A stretch of DNA of 37,071 bases, taken from positions 1-37,071 of IMG/VR virus record IMGVR_UViG_3300030102_004271, one strand, 5' to 3'. The notes beneath the pieces are model-generated. The model ran no database searches, was not told the origin of the DNA, and worked only from the letters and a program-made list of their open reading frames with translations. This DNA comes from a virus. Of the stretch, positions 1,893 through 31,721 are shown one piece after another. A program made the position numbers and the translations under genes. How positions within the stretch are numbered: the stretch's first letter is position 1; the number at the start of each line of letters is the position of its first letter.

Positions 1893-1919
1893 TTGTGGCG
1901 GGACACTGTTCCGCCACAA
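1893..1919 (+). terminator. GC-rich stem-loop after the capsid gene
   Basis: TTGTGGCGG and CCGCCACAA form a perfect 9-bp stem around a 9-base loop, starting 12 bases after the capsid stop codon. It stands out in AT-rich DNA. The downstream bases are ATTAAAAATT rather than a run of T, so it may be a partial terminator, a processing site or an mRNA 3'-end stabiliser for the capsid transcript rather than a full terminator. Confidence 0.45.
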
Positions 1920-21676: not shown

Positions 21677-21845
21677 AAAATCTGCATTACAAAAAATAGA
21701 AGATCACGAAAAGCTTTGTAGAATTATGCAAAAACAAACGTTTGATCAAATAAAAGAATTAAAATCTCAAATAGTTAGGATTGAAAGACTTTTAATTGGA
21801 ACAGCGGCTTTTGTAATAATTAGTTTAGTAGACAAACTTCTTTAA
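21669..21845 (+). CDS. Holin-like small membrane protein (XhlA-like)
   Basis: A 58-residue protein starting inside the end of the 1332-residue gene (MPKKSALQKIEDHEKL). The first 40 residues are a charged helix with heptad character (TFDQIKELKSQIVRIERL), followed by a single hydrophobic segment, residues about 41-53 (LLIGTAAFVIISL), and VDKLL. A cytoplasmic coiled coil plus one C-terminal membrane helix is the layout of haemolysin XhlA-type holin proteins. The stop codon overlaps the stop of the convergent helicase gene. It lies far from the endolysin, so the lysis role is inferred from layout. Confidence 0.6.
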   Translation: MPKKSALQKIEDHEKLCRIMQKQTFDQIKELKSQIVRIERLLIGTAAFVIISLVDKLL

Positions 21846-23272
21846 ATCCAAGATTTAATTTCTTCACCCATAATTTGACTAGCAATGTTTTGTTTTTTAC
21901 GCAAAGCTAAAACTATTCTGTCATCAACTGTATCTTCAGAAATAATATCAATATAAGTCATAGGTTTAGTTTGACCAATACGATCTATACGCGCTTCTGA
22001 TTGTTGTCTCTTTTCTAAATCATAACCATTAGAAAAATAAATCATTGTACTTGCAGCAGTTAATGTGATACCATATCCGCCGGTTTGTGTCGTACCTATA
22101 AAAAATCTACACTTGTCATCTTCTTGAAACTTCTTTATATTGTCTTGTCTTTTTTCTTGAGGAGTTAATCCATAATAATCAACATAACTATCATCACCAT
22201 ATTCTTTTGATATAGCATTTATAATTTTGTTAATATCTCTTTGATACTGAGCCCATATCACAACCTTACCTTCCACTTGTTCTATAATATCTAAAAGTTC
22301 ATCAACTCTTTTACAAGGTAAATCTTTTGTTGACCCATCATCAGCCACAAAATGACCACAAGTAATTTGATGTAAACGCATCAATTGCGTCAAGACTGTG
22401 TTTGTAGTCAAAACTTTGCCATCTAAATGTGCTAATGCAGTTTGCTTCATTTCTTTATAAACCTTCTCTTGTTCAGGAGTTAAAGAAACTGTACGTTTCA
22501 TCCAGGTCTTTTTAGGTAAGTCTAAGCAATCTTCTTTTAAAACTCTGTAAGAAAAAGGTTTAAGTTTATCAGACAGCTCACCAAGATTTCTATATCCAAC
22601 TACAACTTGAACTGTTCTAGCACCTAAATTCATATTACGCATTACAGCGTACCTTGCTCTAAATGTATAAAAAGAATGATGACCTAAAAGATTTGTATCT
22701 AAAAACTCACACTGAGAATATAGATCTAACGGTGATTTTGTAATAGGTGAACCTGTAAGTATTCTTCTGTACTTAGAATCTTTTGCAATCTTTAAAATGT
22801 TTTTAGTTCTTTTAGCAGATGGATTTTTTATAGTTGTAGCTTCATCAATAGCAATCATAGATTTATGAGATGCTAAAAACTTAGCAGCGAAATCTAAACC
22901 TTTTTTAGTAGAGAACGCTTCTACGTTCATAATTAAAATATGTAGATCAGTTCCTGTTTCAAACAAAGTATTTAATTCTTTTAGTTTTGGTTTGGTATGT
23001 GATGCAGTCCAAAGAACAGATTTCTTTTCAATATGATCTACCATGTGTGTAGGTATTTCAGAGTCGTACCAGTTTTTGTATACACCTTTAGGTGCAATCA
23101 AAAGCAAACCATTTATATCGCCTTTGTCATAAAGCATAGATACATTATCAATTAATACTTTTGATTTACCCGTACCCATTTCCATAAAATACGCATATAC
23201 TTCTTTATCCCAAGACATTTCTAAAGCTTTAAGCTGATGCGCAAAAGGCTTTGTTTTAAATTTATAGAACAT
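21842..23272 (-). CDS. SNF2-family DEAD/DEAH-like helicase
   Basis: A 476-residue SF2 ATPase of SNF2 type. Motifs in order: Q-like FAHQLKALEMSW (10-21), Walker A MEMGTGKSK (30-38), motif Ia LLLIAPKGVYKNW, Walker B IDEAT (142-146), motif III LTGSP (172-176), then in the second domain VVIWAQYQRDINK, TQTGGYGITLTAAS (motif V) and QSEARIDRIGQ (motif VI, arginine fingers near 428/431). It is a complete, probably active translocase with minimal length and no accessory domains. It runs against the rest of the genome and has its own promoter at 23324-23296. Remodelling of DNA during replication or anti-defence activity are both possible. Confidence 0.9.
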   Translation of the reverse strand: MFYKFKTKPFAHQLKALEMSWDKEVYAYFMEMGTGKSKVLIDNVSMLYDKGDINGLLLIAPKGVYKNWYDSEIPTHMVDHIEKKSVLWTASHTKPKLKELNTLFETGTDLHILIMNVEAFSTKKGLDFAAKFLASHKSMIAIDEATTIKNPSAKRTKNILKIAKDSKYRRILTGSPITKSPLDLYSQCEFLDTNLLGHHSFYTFRARYAVMRNMNLGARTVQVVVGYRNLGELSDKLKPFSYRVLKEDCLDLPKKTWMKRTVSLTPEQEKVYKEMKQTALAHLDGKVLTTNTVLTQLMRLHQITCGHFVADDGSTKDLPCKRVDELLDIIEQVEGKVVIWAQYQRDINKIINAISKEYGDDSYVDYYGLTPQEKRQDNIKKFQEDDKCRFFIGTTQTGGYGITLTAASTMIYFSNGYDLEKRQQSEARIDRIGQTKPMTYIDIISEDTVDDRIVLALRKKQNIASQIMGEEIKSWI

Positions 23273-23275
23273 AAT

Positions 23276-23300
23276 ATTTTATACTTTCTAAGTATAAAAT
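23276..23300. repeat. Perfect 11-bp inverted repeat over the helicase promoter
   Basis: ATTTTATACTT (23276-23286), TCT, AAGTATAAAAT (23290-23300) form a perfect inverted repeat. It covers most of the -10 box and the predicted transcription start of the helicase promoter, just before the start codon at 23272. It could be an operator for a dimeric repressor or a 5'-leader hairpin. Confidence 0.65.
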
Positions 23301-23324
23301 AGGATACATTAGGATATTTGTCAA
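23296..23324 (-). promoter_or_regulatory. Promoter for the SNF2 helicase
   Basis: On the minus strand: TTGACA (23324-23319), a 17-base spacer, TATTTT (23301-23296). The spacer consists of AA, TATCCTA, ATG and TATCC, so two TATCCTA copies lie 10 bp apart, the second running into the -10. It begins at the base after the sulfotransferase stop codon, giving the helicase its own transcript. The layout matches the promoter at 34449. Confidence 0.75.
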
Positions 23325-24119
23325 CTATTTATAATTAAATTTTTTACAGTATTTGTCGTATTTTTCCATACAAAGTTCACATGCTCGTGGAAAATTTTTT
23401 GTAAATAATTCCACAGTCGCATTTTTAGGTCTTTGTCTTTTTCCAGGGACTTTTTCTGAAGCTTCAACTCTGTATGATTTTGATTTAAAAGTTTTCATTC
23501 TTTCAGCTAAACCTTGAATTCCTGGAATTTTTTCTTCTAAAGCTTTTATATCTGCTTTCATATTTTCATATCTAATCATATGATCTATTACATATTCACC
23601 ATTTATTTCGTAAAATTTATCCCAATCTTTTATAGGAGAATTCAATGCATAATCCCTAAAATCTTGACCCACTAAATCTGCTTCAAAAAAATAATAGTTG
23701 GATATAAGATAATCAATTGGATGTCTAATAATTGAAACTTTAGTATATGAATTAAAAATATCTTCTCCTATTCTTTTTTTAATTTTTCTAGCTTCTATGT
23801 GATTATAGTATCTCTGACTATTTGCTTCAAATACACGAATAAACTTTCCGAAAGATTGATAACAATCATTATTCATTATATTATTAGCTACTGAATGGTC
23901 GATATCTAATCCCAAAATGTGATCAAAATATTTAACTCCATTGTTTTCATTTTGATAATGAACCTTATTTCGTTCTTGACTAATTTGTTCATCATCTGGA
24001 GTACAAGTTGTAATTATATCTTCTGGACCACAATAATCTCTTAAAGCTAGTTCAAAAGAAGTACCAGCTACTTTAAGTGGTTTTATAAAGATTAATTTAT
24101 GTTTATGTGATATAATCAT
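23325..24119 (-). CDS. Sulfotransferase (PAPS-dependent, Sulfotransfer_2-like)
   Basis: A 264-residue enzyme when started at 24119. The 5'-phosphosulfate loop is KPLKVAGTSFE (residues 13-23) and the 3'-phosphate site is VSIIRHPIDYLISNYYF, with Arg132 and Ser140 as the expected ligands; a family-typical NHIEARKIKKRIG helix precedes it. It should transfer sulfate from PAPS to a glycan or other acceptor, on host envelope or virion. An in-frame ATG at 24149 lies upstream of the predicted -10, so the ATG at 24119, 13 bases after the predicted start of transcription, is preferred. The gene is very AT-rich and inverted, like a cargo (moron) gene. Confidence 0.85.
   Translation of the reverse strand: MIISHKHKLIFIKPLKVAGTSFELALRDYCGPEDIITTCTPDDEQISQERNKVHYQNENNGVKYFDHILGLDIDHSVANNIMNNDCYQSFGKFIRVFEANSQRYYNHIEARKIKKRIGEDIFNSYTKVSIIRHPIDYLISNYYFFEADLVGQDFRDYALNSPIKDWDKFYEINGEYVIDHMIRYENMKADIKALEEKIPGIQGLAERMKTFKSKSYRVEASEKVPGKRQRPKNATVELFTKNFPRACELCMEKYDKYCKKFNYK
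24108..24116 (+). promoter_or_regulatory. Extended -10 promoter for the 24166 gene
   Basis: TGATATAAT is a perfect extended -10 (TGnTATAAT) on the plus strand, 50 bases before the ATG at 24166. It lies inside the first codons of the divergent sulfotransferase gene. No good -35 is visible, as allowed for extended -10 promoters. Confidence 0.45.
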
Positions 24120-24138
24120 TGCTTTCTTTTTAAAAAAA

Positions 24139-24166
24139 TATATATACAACTAAAAGAGAAAGTCAA
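24139..24166 (-). promoter_or_regulatory. Promoter for the sulfotransferase
   Basis: On the minus strand: TTGACT (24166-24161), 16-base spacer, TATATA (24144-24139). The -35 overlaps the first base of the divergent gene's ATG. The predicted transcript starts near 24132, which supports translation from 24119 and not 24149. Confidence 0.6.
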
Positions 24167-25136: not shown

Positions 25137-25862
25137 ATGGAAACTAGTAACGAGAAACAAGTGACTATAAAAAAAGAGAATCTGCCTTCAGATATTTTAT
25201 TTGAAGCAGATGCAGCTAAGGGTTTAGAGAATGTAAAGACAGAAAATCTGGCTTTACCAATTCTTAAACTTTTACAAAACGGATCTGGAGAAGCTCAGAA
25301 GCGTAATCAAAATTACGTAGAAGGTGCTGAACCAGGTATGTTCTTAAACACCGTAACTAAAAAAGTTTACGACGGTGCTAAAGGAATAGAGGTTGTACCC
25401 TGCTATTACAAACTTGAATTTCAAGAGTGGGCAGATTTTGGTACAGGTTCAGGTAGACCGGAAAACATCTTTGATGCAAGTTCGGACATACTTAGTAAGA
25501 CTACTAAAGATCAATCAGGAAAAGATCGTCTCGAGAATGGAAACTACATTCTCACAGTCGGTCAACATTTTGTTTTGATTGTTGATGGTGAGATTACAGA
25601 ACCTGCTTTAATCTCTATGAGTTCTTCTCAAGGTAAAGTGAGTAGAAAATGGAATTCAATGATGGCTTCAATTACACTTGAAGGCAAAAATGGTCCTTTC
25701 ACTCCTGCTACTTACAGTCATAAATACGTCCTGTCTTCTGTACTTAACAGTGGTAAAGGAAACCAATGGTATGGCTTCAATGTCGTAAGAGGTGCCATGG
25801 TTGATAATGCATCACTCTACGAAAGAGCGAAAAAGTTTCACAACTCATTCGCCGGTAAATAG
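25137..25862 (+). CDS. Conserved phage protein, possible DNA-binding accessory
   Basis: A 241-residue protein with LALPILKLLQNGSGEAQKRN, EGAEPGMFLNTVTKKVYDG, GIEVVPCYYKLEFQEW and VGQHFVLIVDGEITEPALIS, then a C-terminal WYGFNVVRGAMV. Its strand-rich core and its place before primase and helicase genes are what one expects of a single-strand DNA-binding accessory protein, but I see no diagnostic OB-fold residues or acidic tail, so that remains a guess. The ribosome site is AAAGGAG. It is separated from the primase start by the hairpin at 25873-25900. Confidence 0.6.
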   Translation: METSNEKQVTIKKENLPSDILFEADAAKGLENVKTENLALPILKLLQNGSGEAQKRNQNYVEGAEPGMFLNTVTKKVYDGAKGIEVVPCYYKLEFQEWADFGTGSGRPENIFDASSDILSKTTKDQSGKDRLENGNYILTVGQHFVLIVDGEITEPALISMSSSQGKVSRKWNSMMASITLEGKNGPFTPATYSHKYVLSSVLNSGKGNQWYGFNVVRGAMVDNASLYERAKKFHNSFAGK

Positions 25863-25872
25863 TGTGAATAGT

Positions 25873-25900
25873 GGGCGCCAAAGGGAGACTCGAGGCGCCC
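25873..25900 (+). promoter_or_regulatory. GC-only hairpin abutting the primase start codon
   Basis: GGGCGCC (25873-25879) and GGCGCCC (25894-25900) pair perfectly; the 14-base loop contains AAGGGAG, the only Shine-Dalgarno match for the ATG at 25901. The 3' arm ends at the base before that ATG. Folding would limit ribosome access or bring the loop close to the start codon, so a translational operator is likely. A terminator is less likely because no T-run follows. Confidence 0.6.
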
Positions 25901-27472
25901 ATGTTAGGACAGGATATGACAGACGTATTAAAAAAATTTAAAAGTATATTTGAAGGCTTAGATATAGCCCATGGTGAAACACGTAAAACAGGGGAAATAT
26001 CTTCAAAAGGTAAAAATGTTACTAGGTCTAAAACAATTTCAGAACCACCTACAGACAAGATGTGGCAAGACCATTTAAATGGTACTGATCCTGCATTAGG
26101 TATTATTCCAATAAGAAGAGATAGCACTTGTATTTGGGGTTGTATTGATTGGGATGTATATCCTTTAGATCACAAACAAATAGTGCAAGACCTTAAAAAG
26201 AAAAAGATACCACTAATAGTGTTTAGATCAAAATCTGGTGGTGCACATTTATTTTTATTTACAAAAGAACCAGTTCCTGCAGCCATGATGAGAGATAAAT
26301 TAAAAACATACGCAGCAGCAATTGGTCATGCAAAAGCAGAGATATTTCCAAAACAAGAAAAAATAAATATTGAACGTGGTGATGTTGGTAGTTTTTTAAA
26401 CTTACCTTATCACAATCTAGACAACACTGTTAGATACGCATTTGATAGTAATGGTAATCCAATTTTAGATATTCAAAAATTTTTTGATCACTACGACAAA
26501 ATTGTTTTAACAGTAGATCAATTTAAAAAATTAGAATTAAAAGAAAAAGAAGAAGATGACTTTTATGAAATGCCACCATGTTTAGTTACACTTTTATCTG
26601 ATGGTGTCGGAGAAGGTATTAGAAACGAAACCATGTACAATTTAGGTGTTTATTTAAAAAAAAGATTTTCTGAAGGTGGTTTGTGGAAAAAGAAAATGAA
26701 TCACTACAACTTTAAATATTTTAAACCACCTATTGATGGTGAGGAAATTGTAAAGACTCAAGAGTCATTGGAAAGCAAAGAGTATTTTTATAGATGTAAA
26801 AATGAACCTATATCATCTTTTTGTGATCCTAAGAAATGTATAACAAAAAAATTTGGTGTGGGGGATGAAGATGCACCCGTTCAAACTATATCTCAAATAA
26901 GAAAATATAATTCAGATCCACCATTATTTTTTTGTGACATAGATGGACAAACAGTAATAACTGACACTGCAGTTCTTCATGATCCAGATAAATTTTCTAT
27001 GGCCTGTCTAGAACAAATAGGTAAACCACAAATGCCTACAGCAAAAATTATATGGCGTAAGATGTTAATAAAACTTTTAGAAGAAAAACAAGAAACAGAT
27101 ATTAAGCCTACAGAAGATCTTAAAGTTGATAATCAGTTAAAAGAATACATAGAAGATTTTGTAAACAAAGTTAGGGGTAAAGATATAAATGATATTCAAA
27201 GAGGTGTTGCGTATAGTGATGATATTTATAGTTATTTTAAAATGAAAGATTTTTGGAGACATTTATTAAAAAATAAATGGCCCGACAAAAGATATCCAAA
27301 ACATGTTGTTGTACAAAAGCTACAAACTTTACTAAATATTACAGAAGATTATCCAAAAATAAACGGTAAGACAGTTCGTTGTTTTAAGATGTTAAAGATT
27401 ATATCTGTCGAACCAGAGAAAGCAAAATATGAAAGTCAGGAACCAGCGTGGAAAAGAAAAATAGAACAGTAA
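25901..27472 (+). CDS. DNA primase/PrimPol (archaeo-eukaryotic type) with four-cysteine domain
   Basis: 523 residues from the ATG at 25901; an in-frame GTG at 25871 lies 5' of the hairpin and has no ribosome site. The AEP core shows CIDWDVYPLD with the catalytic D-x-D (83/85), SKSGGAHLFLF (S-x-G-G-x-H, 112-116), and a later GDVGSFLNLPYHN. A second domain has MPPC (Cys227), GVGEGIRNETMYNLGVYL, the helix NFKYFKPPIDGEEIV, YRCK (Cys299), FCDPKKC (Cys308, Cys313): PriCT-like, with cysteines spaced as in PriL-type Fe-S domains. It should make primers for the family A polymerase. It overlaps the helicase gene by 25 bases. Confidence 0.75.
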   Translation: MLGQDMTDVLKKFKSIFEGLDIAHGETRKTGEISSKGKNVTRSKTISEPPTDKMWQDHLNGTDPALGIIPIRRDSTCIWGCIDWDVYPLDHKQIVQDLKKKKIPLIVFRSKSGGAHLFLFTKEPVPAAMMRDKLKTYAAAIGHAKAEIFPKQEKINIERGDVGSFLNLPYHNLDNTVRYAFDSNGNPILDIQKFFDHYDKIVLTVDQFKKLELKEKEEDDFYEMPPCLVTLLSDGVGEGIRNETMYNLGVYLKKRFSEGGLWKKKMNHYNFKYFKPPIDGEEIVKTQESLESKEYFYRCKNEPISSFCDPKKCITKKFGVGDEDAPVQTISQIRKYNSDPPLFFCDIDGQTVITDTAVLHDPDKFSMACLEQIGKPQMPTAKIIWRKMLIKLLEEKQETDIKPTEDLKVDNQLKEYIEDFVNKVRGKDINDIQRGVAYSDDIYSYFKMKDFWRHLLKNKWPDKRYPKHVVVQKLQTLLNITEDYPKINGKTVRCFKMLKIISVEPEKAKYESQEPAWKRKIEQ

Positions 27473-31070: not shown

Positions 31071-31721
31071 ATGGCGTATCTAAACGTAAACGTACCACCG
31101 ACTTATGCACAAATAAGAAGGGAGTATTTATATGATCTTAAAAAACATCATGGAGAAGTTGAAGATTGTATCATCTTTGGTCTTAGCGCTCTTACAGGTC
31201 GTGCAATATTATTCCATGCTATTATGGAAAACGGTGCAATATTCTATCGCTTACCTATTAGCGCTTTTATTCAAAAGGGATTTGATGCATCCGGAGTGCC
31301 CACAAGACGACTTGATGAACTTCAGCTTTGGAATTGTTTTAGTTACTATCCTGCTGTTAATCGTTGGGATATATTAGACGGTCAAGCAGGAAAATACATA
31401 GGAAAAGATAAAAAATGGCACCATGGTAAATATTTATTTACTGTTGACTTTGCACATCCTGAAAGTAATATACTAGACACTGATCATTCAGAGATTCCGC
31501 ACGAACATAAGTGCGCACACATTATTGCCTTAGATGACGGCAATTTTGCAGCACAACCTAACAATAGATGTATATGGGACATACCTTCTTTCACTGTAAA
31601 GGACAGTATTCCTGACTGGAAAGTGCAAACCTCTGAGTGGAACGTTGAAGATAGTAAAGCATGGCGGACAGAAGATACCGACAAGTTTTTCTATGAAATA
31701 GAGGAGAAGAAAAATGATTAA
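31071..31721 (+). CDS. Conserved phage protein, function unknown
   Basis: A 216-residue soluble protein rich in Trp, His and Asp: TYAQIRREYLYDLKKHHGEV, EDCIIFGLSALTGRAILFHA, IFYRLPISAFIQKGFD, LQLWNCFSYYPAVNRWDILD, DFAHPESNILDTDHSEIPHE, HKCAHIIALDDGNFAAQPNN. The repeated His/Asp/Cys pattern could bind a metal, but no named family fits. I recall similar proteins beside polymerase genes of marine phages. The ribosome site is TGAGGAG, 10 bases after the polymerase stop. Its stop overlaps the next tiny gene (ATGATTAA). Confidence 0.65.
   Translation: MAYLNVNVPPTYAQIRREYLYDLKKHHGEVEDCIIFGLSALTGRAILFHAIMENGAIFYRLPISAFIQKGFDASGVPTRRLDELQLWNCFSYYPAVNRWDILDGQAGKYIGKDKKWHHGKYLFTVDFAHPESNILDTDHSEIPHEHKCAHIIALDDGNFAAQPNNRCIWDIPSFTVKDSIPDWKVQTSEWNVEDSKAWRTEDTDKFFYEIEEKKND

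Follow-up and report, generated by a model that had tools for sequence, protein, structure and literature searches.

The gp34-primase junction and its hairpin

The DNA analysed here, referred to as the window, is a stretch of 37,071 nt (37 kb) whose source is a virus record. A G+C-rich hairpin lies in it between a gp34-like gene and a gene for an AEP-type primase. The features of this junction, and a second hairpin of the same window, are as follows.

1893-1919, plus strand: second strong intergenic hairpin, immediately downstream of the major capsid gene (970-1881); similar position, different loop
25137-25862, plus strand: Pam3 gp34-like gene; predicted OB-fold, single-stranded-DNA-binding-protein-like (Pfam PF23977, 2.9e-57)
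25860-25870, plus strand: conserved 5' flank TAGTGTGAATA with the gp34 stop codon (alignment of relatives)
25871-25879, plus strand: 5' arm of the 9-bp stem (folding; covariation)
25880-25882, plus strand: 5' side of the 3x3 internal loop (pairing counts)
25883-25890, plus strand: conserved octamer GGGAGACU, which forms a G.U pair, a G-C pair and a GAGA (GNRA) tetraloop (both pairs covary)
25891-25893, plus strand: 3' side of the 3x3 internal loop (pairing counts)
25894-25902, plus strand: 3' arm of the stem, ending with the A and T that begin the non-conserved ATG 25901
25906-25909, plus strand: AGGA, the likely Shine-Dalgarno (SD) sequence of the primase gene, 6 nt before ATG 25916 and outside the loop (sequence)
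25916-27472, plus strand: primase gene (AEP-TOTE type; PF22548 2.3e-14, phrog_21866 2.3e-85, run from 25901); start conserved in relatives

The sequence at 25873-25900 reads GGGCGCC-AAAGGGAGACTCGA-GGCGCCC, and the full hairpin, GTGGGCGCC-AAA-GG-GAGA-CT-CGA-GGCGCCCAT, extends over 25871-25902. The first-pass annotation had described a 7-bp stem ending one base before an ATG. This stem is present, but it is 9 bp long (25871-25879/25894-25902), with G25871.T25902 and T25872-A25901 added to the 7-bp part. The ATG at 25901 directly abuts the 7-bp part, with zero bases between, and contributes two bases to the longer stem. The 3x3 internal loop, the G.U pair, the G-C pair and the GAGA tetraloop are stacked above. 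The minimum free energy of a 68-nt region was -21.3 kcal/mol (z = -3.65), and none of 200 shuffles was equally stable. Hairpins with at least 7 G-C pairs occur twice in the whole window and never in 40 dinucleotide shuffles of it. Model R1 had one match above 20 bits in the window, the gp34-primase hairpin itself (43.7 bits). The sequence, the folding z score and the shuffles confirm that the compact G/C hairpin reported at the primase junction is real.

The G+C-rich hairpin of an intrinsic (Rho-independent) terminator is present in the window, but its U-run is not: the stem is followed by GTTAGGACA, and only 1 of 37 non-redundant phage contexts has a T-run. No match to Rfam release 15 reached the gathering threshold in the window or in seven host loci, and region 25700-26050 had no covariance-model match up to E 5. 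A promoter scan of 23-32 kb of the window gave no excess over shuffles. The flank TAGTGTGAATA may pair with TTCAC.ACT within the gp34 end, a weakly supported pairing spotted by eye. Elsewhere in the window, a gene of the replication region (31071-31721) matches a PHROG family called ferredoxin (3.9e-73). On the minus strand, at 21842-24149, a SNF2-type helicase gene and a sulfotransferase-like gene interrupt the run of plus-strand genes and reverse the GC skew.

The product of the gp34-like gene was modelled with AlphaFold (pLDDT 86, 31 sequences). Foldseek found no match to this model at E <= 0.001, so the OB-fold assignment is suggestive. A second structural aligner placed the phiC31 RDF at Z 8.9 (rmsd 3.7, 154 aligned), and the RB69 and T4 gp32 cores at Z 6.5 and 6.1. 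Numerous OB folds of SSB and RPA proteins scored Z 3-5, and all but one of the OB-fold neighbours were under Z 8. From the model, gp34 is likely an OB-fold single-strand-binding protein.

Primase translation was thought in the first-pass annotation to start at ATG 25901, with its SD sequence in the loop of the hairpin. Alignment of relatives indicates ATG 25916 as the conserved start. The site of ATG 25901 is ATG in 35 of 58 relatives, ACG in 17, ATA in 4 and otherwise in 2. Only 7 of the 35 ATG stay open for 100 codons, which means that the site opens into primase in 7/58 relatives, and in the closest relative (L001) the ATG is out of frame. The letters GGGAG do stand in the loop; as an SD sequence they did not hold up, as the AGGA of the conserved start lies outside it. 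GGAG is missing in 25 of 80 HTVC027P-type junctions (GCGAGAGU, GCUAGCGU and GGGAAACU), and the fold is retained there. Because flips of the closing pair destroy GGAG and the 25901 start opens in so few relatives, a functional SD in the loop is refuted. A conserved SD of the regulated gene within the hairpin, as in an SD-sequestering operator, was not found.

The foot of the hairpin lies 3-33 nt before the primase start. The spacer between them contains AGGA, GGAG or GAGG in 9 of 43 contexts and lacks them in 34, compared with 26 of 34 gp34 starts, for which the 15 nt preceding the start were covered. Because the hairpin is near the start and an SD is seldom in the spacer, primase translation is probably weak or affected by the hairpin, judging from these sequences. 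Thus, the earlier suggestion of translational control survives as a possible effect of the hairpin on the primase start and fails in its SD-in-loop form.

Conservation and covariation among relatives

Relatives were chosen by protein similarity and not by the presence of a hairpin. The gp34 query gave 80 loci, of which 79 were kept after L032, which ends within the gene, was dropped. A G+C-rich hairpin follows the gp34 stop at the gp34-primase junction in 79/79 loci of this set and in 80/80 of the HTVC027P-like set. In the gp34 set, 46 loci have a GGAGAC loop with six paired inner stem positions, a further 12 have GGAGAC with one C.A mismatch, and the other 21 have another hairpin, so that junctions without GGAGAC still bear hairpins. 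Counted by reading, GNRA loops (GAAA, GCAA, GCGA) occur in 10 of these 21. The unrelated junction hairpins of L053, L071 and L074 are followed by seven T, like classical terminators. In the HTVC027P-like clade, 55 of the 80 loci have GGAGAC, 22 have GCGAGAGU, 2 have GCUAGCGU and 1 has GGGAAACU. A GNRA-capped hairpin with a covarying closing pair, with GAGA and GAAA loops, is found throughout this clade except in the two GCUAGCGU loci.

Covariation was counted in two sets. The first, A1, comprised 95 distinct cores; the G+C-rich outlier L241 was left out of 96, and L001, identical to the window, was represented by the window. All cells pair in A1, with double-sided changes in 6 of 10 pairs, a result matched by 0 of 500 shuffles. 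A1 and R1 were built partly from pattern-selected loci, and since the search pattern fixes GGCG/CGCC, the conservation of those columns in A1 is no evidence. The counts free of this bias come from protein-selected loci, namely the junction counts, the second covariation set and the first two of the three G.U/A.C sets described below.

The second set, A3, comprised 40 protein-selected leaders, kept of 80 after identical leaders were merged and L612, whose start did not fit the search expression, was omitted. In these leaders, 97% of cells pair, compared with 38-50% with slid partners. One outer pair appears as G-C, C-G, A-U and U-A. At the tetraloop, 23 leaders have a G-C closing pair and 17 have C-G. 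Two of the five shuffle measures were unexceptional (double-change pairs, 141/500; further pair types, 164/500). The first-pass annotation had proposed covariation analysis as a check, and had named absent compensatory changes and poor conservation of the stem as evidence against its reading. Both compensatory changes and conservation were found.

G.U pairs outnumber A.C pairs by 33:1, 47:1 and 35:2 in three sets, in which cores were kept only when five of six inner pairs formed; L024, with one extra base on its 3' side, falls outside the pattern. Because G.U far outnumbers A.C, the strand bearing GGGAGACU is the folding strand. The primase gene is co-directional with the hairpin in 147 of the 156 distinct viral contexts listed. 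Together, the G.U excess and the co-directional primase indicate mRNA as the folding molecule. The data indicate that a conserved, covarying RNA structure lies before the primase gene, far beyond chance.

A second hairpin upstream in many phage leaders is a weak lead (mean z -0.84 over 37 contexts, 11 of them below -1, compared with +0.33 downstream). Small AT-rich palindromes, one or two per leader and differing in sequence, separate the gp34 stop from the GC hairpin in L239, L245, L254, L294 and L602-L623; examples from the leaders are CACTGGTCAGTG, TGTAGCTACA and GTTAC..GTAAC.

Occurrence in other phages and in SAR11 chromosomes

Viral contigs scanned with a pattern that left the flanks free gave at least 119 stretches. 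The hairpin precedes a primase homologue in 147 of the 156 distinct viral contexts listed, and in 132 of these 147 it also follows a gp34 homologue. Five of the remaining nine lie between a T7-like capsid gene and a tail-tube-A-like gene (L249, L260, L261, L283 and L317; identified via HTVC031P). Two others have gp34 but no called primase, one is near a contig end, and one belongs to a G+C-rich phage (L241). The isolates with the hairpin are HTVC027P, where it lies at the primase gene, between gp03 and gp04 and around 1831-1864 of MN698241, and HTVC031P, HTVC142P and HTVC168P (blastn). A search of 15 phage records with R1 found one strong copy in 13. HTVC023P had neither an R1 match nor a GGAGAC hairpin, and 023Pt_psg01 had no GGAGAC hairpin and an R1 match of 13 bits only.

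The capsid/tail-tube-A junction was sampled in 15 T7-like pelagiphages (HTVC031P and 14 others) of 32 Pelagibacter records. All 15 have a G+C hairpin there, with GGGAGACU in 4, GCGAGAGU in 1, a shared loop AACACWGACAA in 7 and other loops in 3. The loop shared by these 7, a second conserved one (AACACAGACAA/AACACUGACAA), is present in HTVC011P too, just after a GGGAGACU hairpin; the junctions with it are L628-L632, L634, L635 and L639. The capsid gene of the window (phrog_371) is likewise followed by a hairpin, with 7 G-C pairs. Among relatives of the window, a hairpin follows the capsid gene in 72 of 74 readable cases, 6 of the 80 loci being incomplete there. Their loops are of several kinds, CACAA and UUCG among them, and a T-run is present in 12/72.

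The hairpin also occurs in bacterial chromosomes. Seven Pelagibacteraceae genomes appeared in a scan of genome contigs, with one copy each. Among 197 SAR11-family genomes, 85 have an R1 match at E <= 0.01, a single match in 84 of the 85, and the other 112 have none at this threshold. Of 289 genomes drawn from the class, two gave a match, both of them already known SAR11; because strict prefilters were used, absence elsewhere in the class is provisional. The host copies have the same architecture of stem, internal loop and GGGAGACU as the phage copies, and at least six T occur within 9 nt after the stem in 22 of 50. A conserved block of about 65 nt lies upstream of the host hairpin in 35 aligned loci. 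The phage copies share the hairpin and not this block. The left neighbours vary and include a phosphomannomutase gene, a DmdA-like GCV_T-fold gene, tRNA-Ser (by eye) and island genes, and the right gene, NlpC/P60-like, TauE or others, is usually convergent. No tRNA was called by a tRNA scan of seven host loci; of the loci aligned afterwards, many show an obvious tRNA-Ser on inspection. From these sequence features, the host locus can be read as a gene for a small RNA, present in one copy and ending in a terminator hairpin.

Within the host block (SAR11 chromosomes, L460-L494, L515-L529), GAATC is present in 35/35 aligned loci. In one SAR11 subgroup the block has TATCCACATACAAC and GAGTCTTAA, often just after tRNA-Ser. 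Two general roles of the host copies were considered and rejected. A common SAR11 terminator loop does not fit one R1 match in 84/85 positive genomes, and AGGGAGACT occurs three times in 400 kb, one of them being the hairpin. A chromosomal replication origin was hinted at by DnaA-box-like and GANTC words, and the GC skew, followed along 400 kb in one genome, did not support it.

Possible roles of the hairpin

The sites have a common arrangement: the end of an abundant product (capsid, probable SSB, small RNA body), the hairpin, and then a gene of lesser need (primase, tail tube) or nothing. The relative protein amounts are judged here from the usual roles of such proteins. The T7 T-phi terminator lies between the major capsid and tail-tube genes. 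In phage LUZ100, an "apparent strong terminator" after the capsid gene is likened to that of T7 (PMC10134795). Because the sites, including the capsid hairpin of the window, share a position after abundant-product genes, and because of the likeness to the LUZ100 terminator, the best-supported role is attenuation or the formation of 3' ends. The two hairpins of the window with at least 7 G-C pairs, which follow the capsid gene and gp34, agree with it.

At middling confidence, and from sequence comparison, we believe that the hairpin is a SAR11-adapted intercistronic RNA 3'-end or attenuation element, placed where a gene with an abundant product is followed by one of lower need. It would fold in the sense transcript directly after the stop codon of gp34, the abundant-product gene that probably encodes the phage SSB, and the primase would be needed in smaller amounts. 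At the gap between the two genes, the hairpin would end or trim part of the transcripts, protect the 3' end of gp34 mRNA and crowd the primase start region, so that expression would be stepped down from gp34 to primase. SAR11 phages would use a special cap, the octaloop GGGAGACU, above a stem that is otherwise free to vary, and a SAR11 factor (RNA polymerase, nuclease or RNA-binding protein) would read this cap. Such a factor is suggested because the same cap stands on the single-copy, terminator-like hairpin of SAR11 chromosomes.

Since only 1/37 phage contexts has a T-run, the phage hairpin is no canonical intrinsic terminator. It resembles the T7/LUZ100-type terminator in its intergenic position after an abundant-product gene, but unlike that type it lacks the U-run and carries a conserved GNRA octaloop. 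The terminator-like host hairpin has the same stem, internal loop and GGGAGACU, whereas the phage copies lack its T-run and are closely followed by a start codon. A generic terminator or stabiliser would leave the octaloop conservation and the closeness to the primase start unexplained, a point against the attenuation reading. The pelagiphages HTVC023P and 023Pt_psg01, which lack the GGAGAC hairpin, and the 112 SAR11-family genomes without a match at E <= 0.01 also weigh against it. With the octaloop conserved, the T-run lacking in phages and the primase start close, there is room for protein binding.

One form of protein binding is a translational operator of the downstream gene, in which primase itself (as T4 gp43 does) or the SSB-like gp34 would bind the capped hairpin and block the start region. 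The short distance from hairpin foot to primase ATG and the scarcity of SD sequences in the spacer are consistent with this, as is the resemblance of the predicted gp34 fold to the T4/RB69 gp32 cores (Z 6.1-6.5). The hairpin of the T4 gene 43 operator has a UAAC loop, lies about 40 nt upstream and is bound by gp43 (PMC3014915). The parallel drawn with it in the first-pass annotation holds in general geometry only, in that a hairpin and its loop, both conserved, stand a short way before the ribosome-binding region of a replication gene; protein binding is putative in our case. In contrast to the T4/RB69 operator, the phage hairpin has a GNRA cap, lies 3-33 nt from the start and also occurs in non-replication and host contexts. 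The octaloop is found before the T7-like tail-tube gene and, in SAR11 chromosomes, beside convergent genes, where neither protein is an obvious partner, and the SD in the loop is not conserved. These points make the operator unlikely. With the octaloop in T7-like phages and in SAR11 chromosomes, the suggestion that one of the two proteins encoded upstream exerts control is not supported as a general rule.

Less likely still is mimicry of a host factor's target, in which the phage RNA would copy the 3' hairpin of a SAR11 small RNA to recruit or titrate its host protein. The occurrence of block and hairpin once per genome in 84/85 positive SAR11 genomes, the left neighbours that differ from locus to locus, as expected of a small RNA gene standing on its own, and the same octamer on different stems are in line with it; against this, the host small RNA is itself a candidate and its block of about 65 nt is missing from the phage copies. 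A DNA-level signal, such as a hairpin for single-strand priming or a replication origin near the primase gene, is highly improbable. It would account for the position in a replication gene cluster and for the DnaA-box-like word TATCCACA adjoining the host copies of one SAR11 subgroup, but T7-like phages have the hairpin between structural genes, many host copies have a T-run behind them, and in the one genome sampled the GC skew showed no clear switch in the 200 kb flanking each side of the host copy. An ordinary stable hairpin with no specific role would fit the fact that stable hairpins commonly have GNRA caps; this is hardly credible, for the covarying stem already contradicts it, and the strictly kept position and the octaloop in unrelated settings also speak against it.

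The attenuation reading can be carried one step further, as a tentative and rather doubtful proposal. A SAR11 factor may be specific for GGGAGACU-capped hairpins above an internal loop. In the host, a single small RNA would be its target. To set the ratio of an abundant to a scarce protein, the hairpin would have been adopted independently by two or more phage lineages that are unrelated (Pam3-like/HTVC023P-type and T7-like Autographiviridae). A conserved RNA signal common to such phages, T7-like pelagiphages and the host would offer a way into the study of how the most abundant bacteria of the ocean control their genes after transcription.

The hairpin was not described in the portions available to us of the literature on pelagiphage hairpins, terminators and transcriptomes, Pelagibacter RNA motifs, SAR11 sRNA, conserved phage hairpins and GNRA intercistronic hairpins, and the words "terminator" and "intergenic" do not occur in the main text of PMC12753301, which deals with RNA-seq of HTCC1062 under infection by HTVC027P and HTVC022P. 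The rhtB-associated element of "Cand. Pelagibacter ubique" is described as a single hairpin with a conserved loop and bulge, about half of the examples being followed by 6-9 U (Meyer et al. 2009, PMC2704228). Compared by this text description, it is like the SAR11 hairpin in being a single hairpin with a conserved loop, with U-runs in part, from SAR11 and marine metagenomes, and the two are possibly related. Unlike the host hairpin, next to which an NlpC/P60-like, TauE or other gene in most cases runs convergently, the rhtB element lies 5' of rhtB, proC or liv genes.
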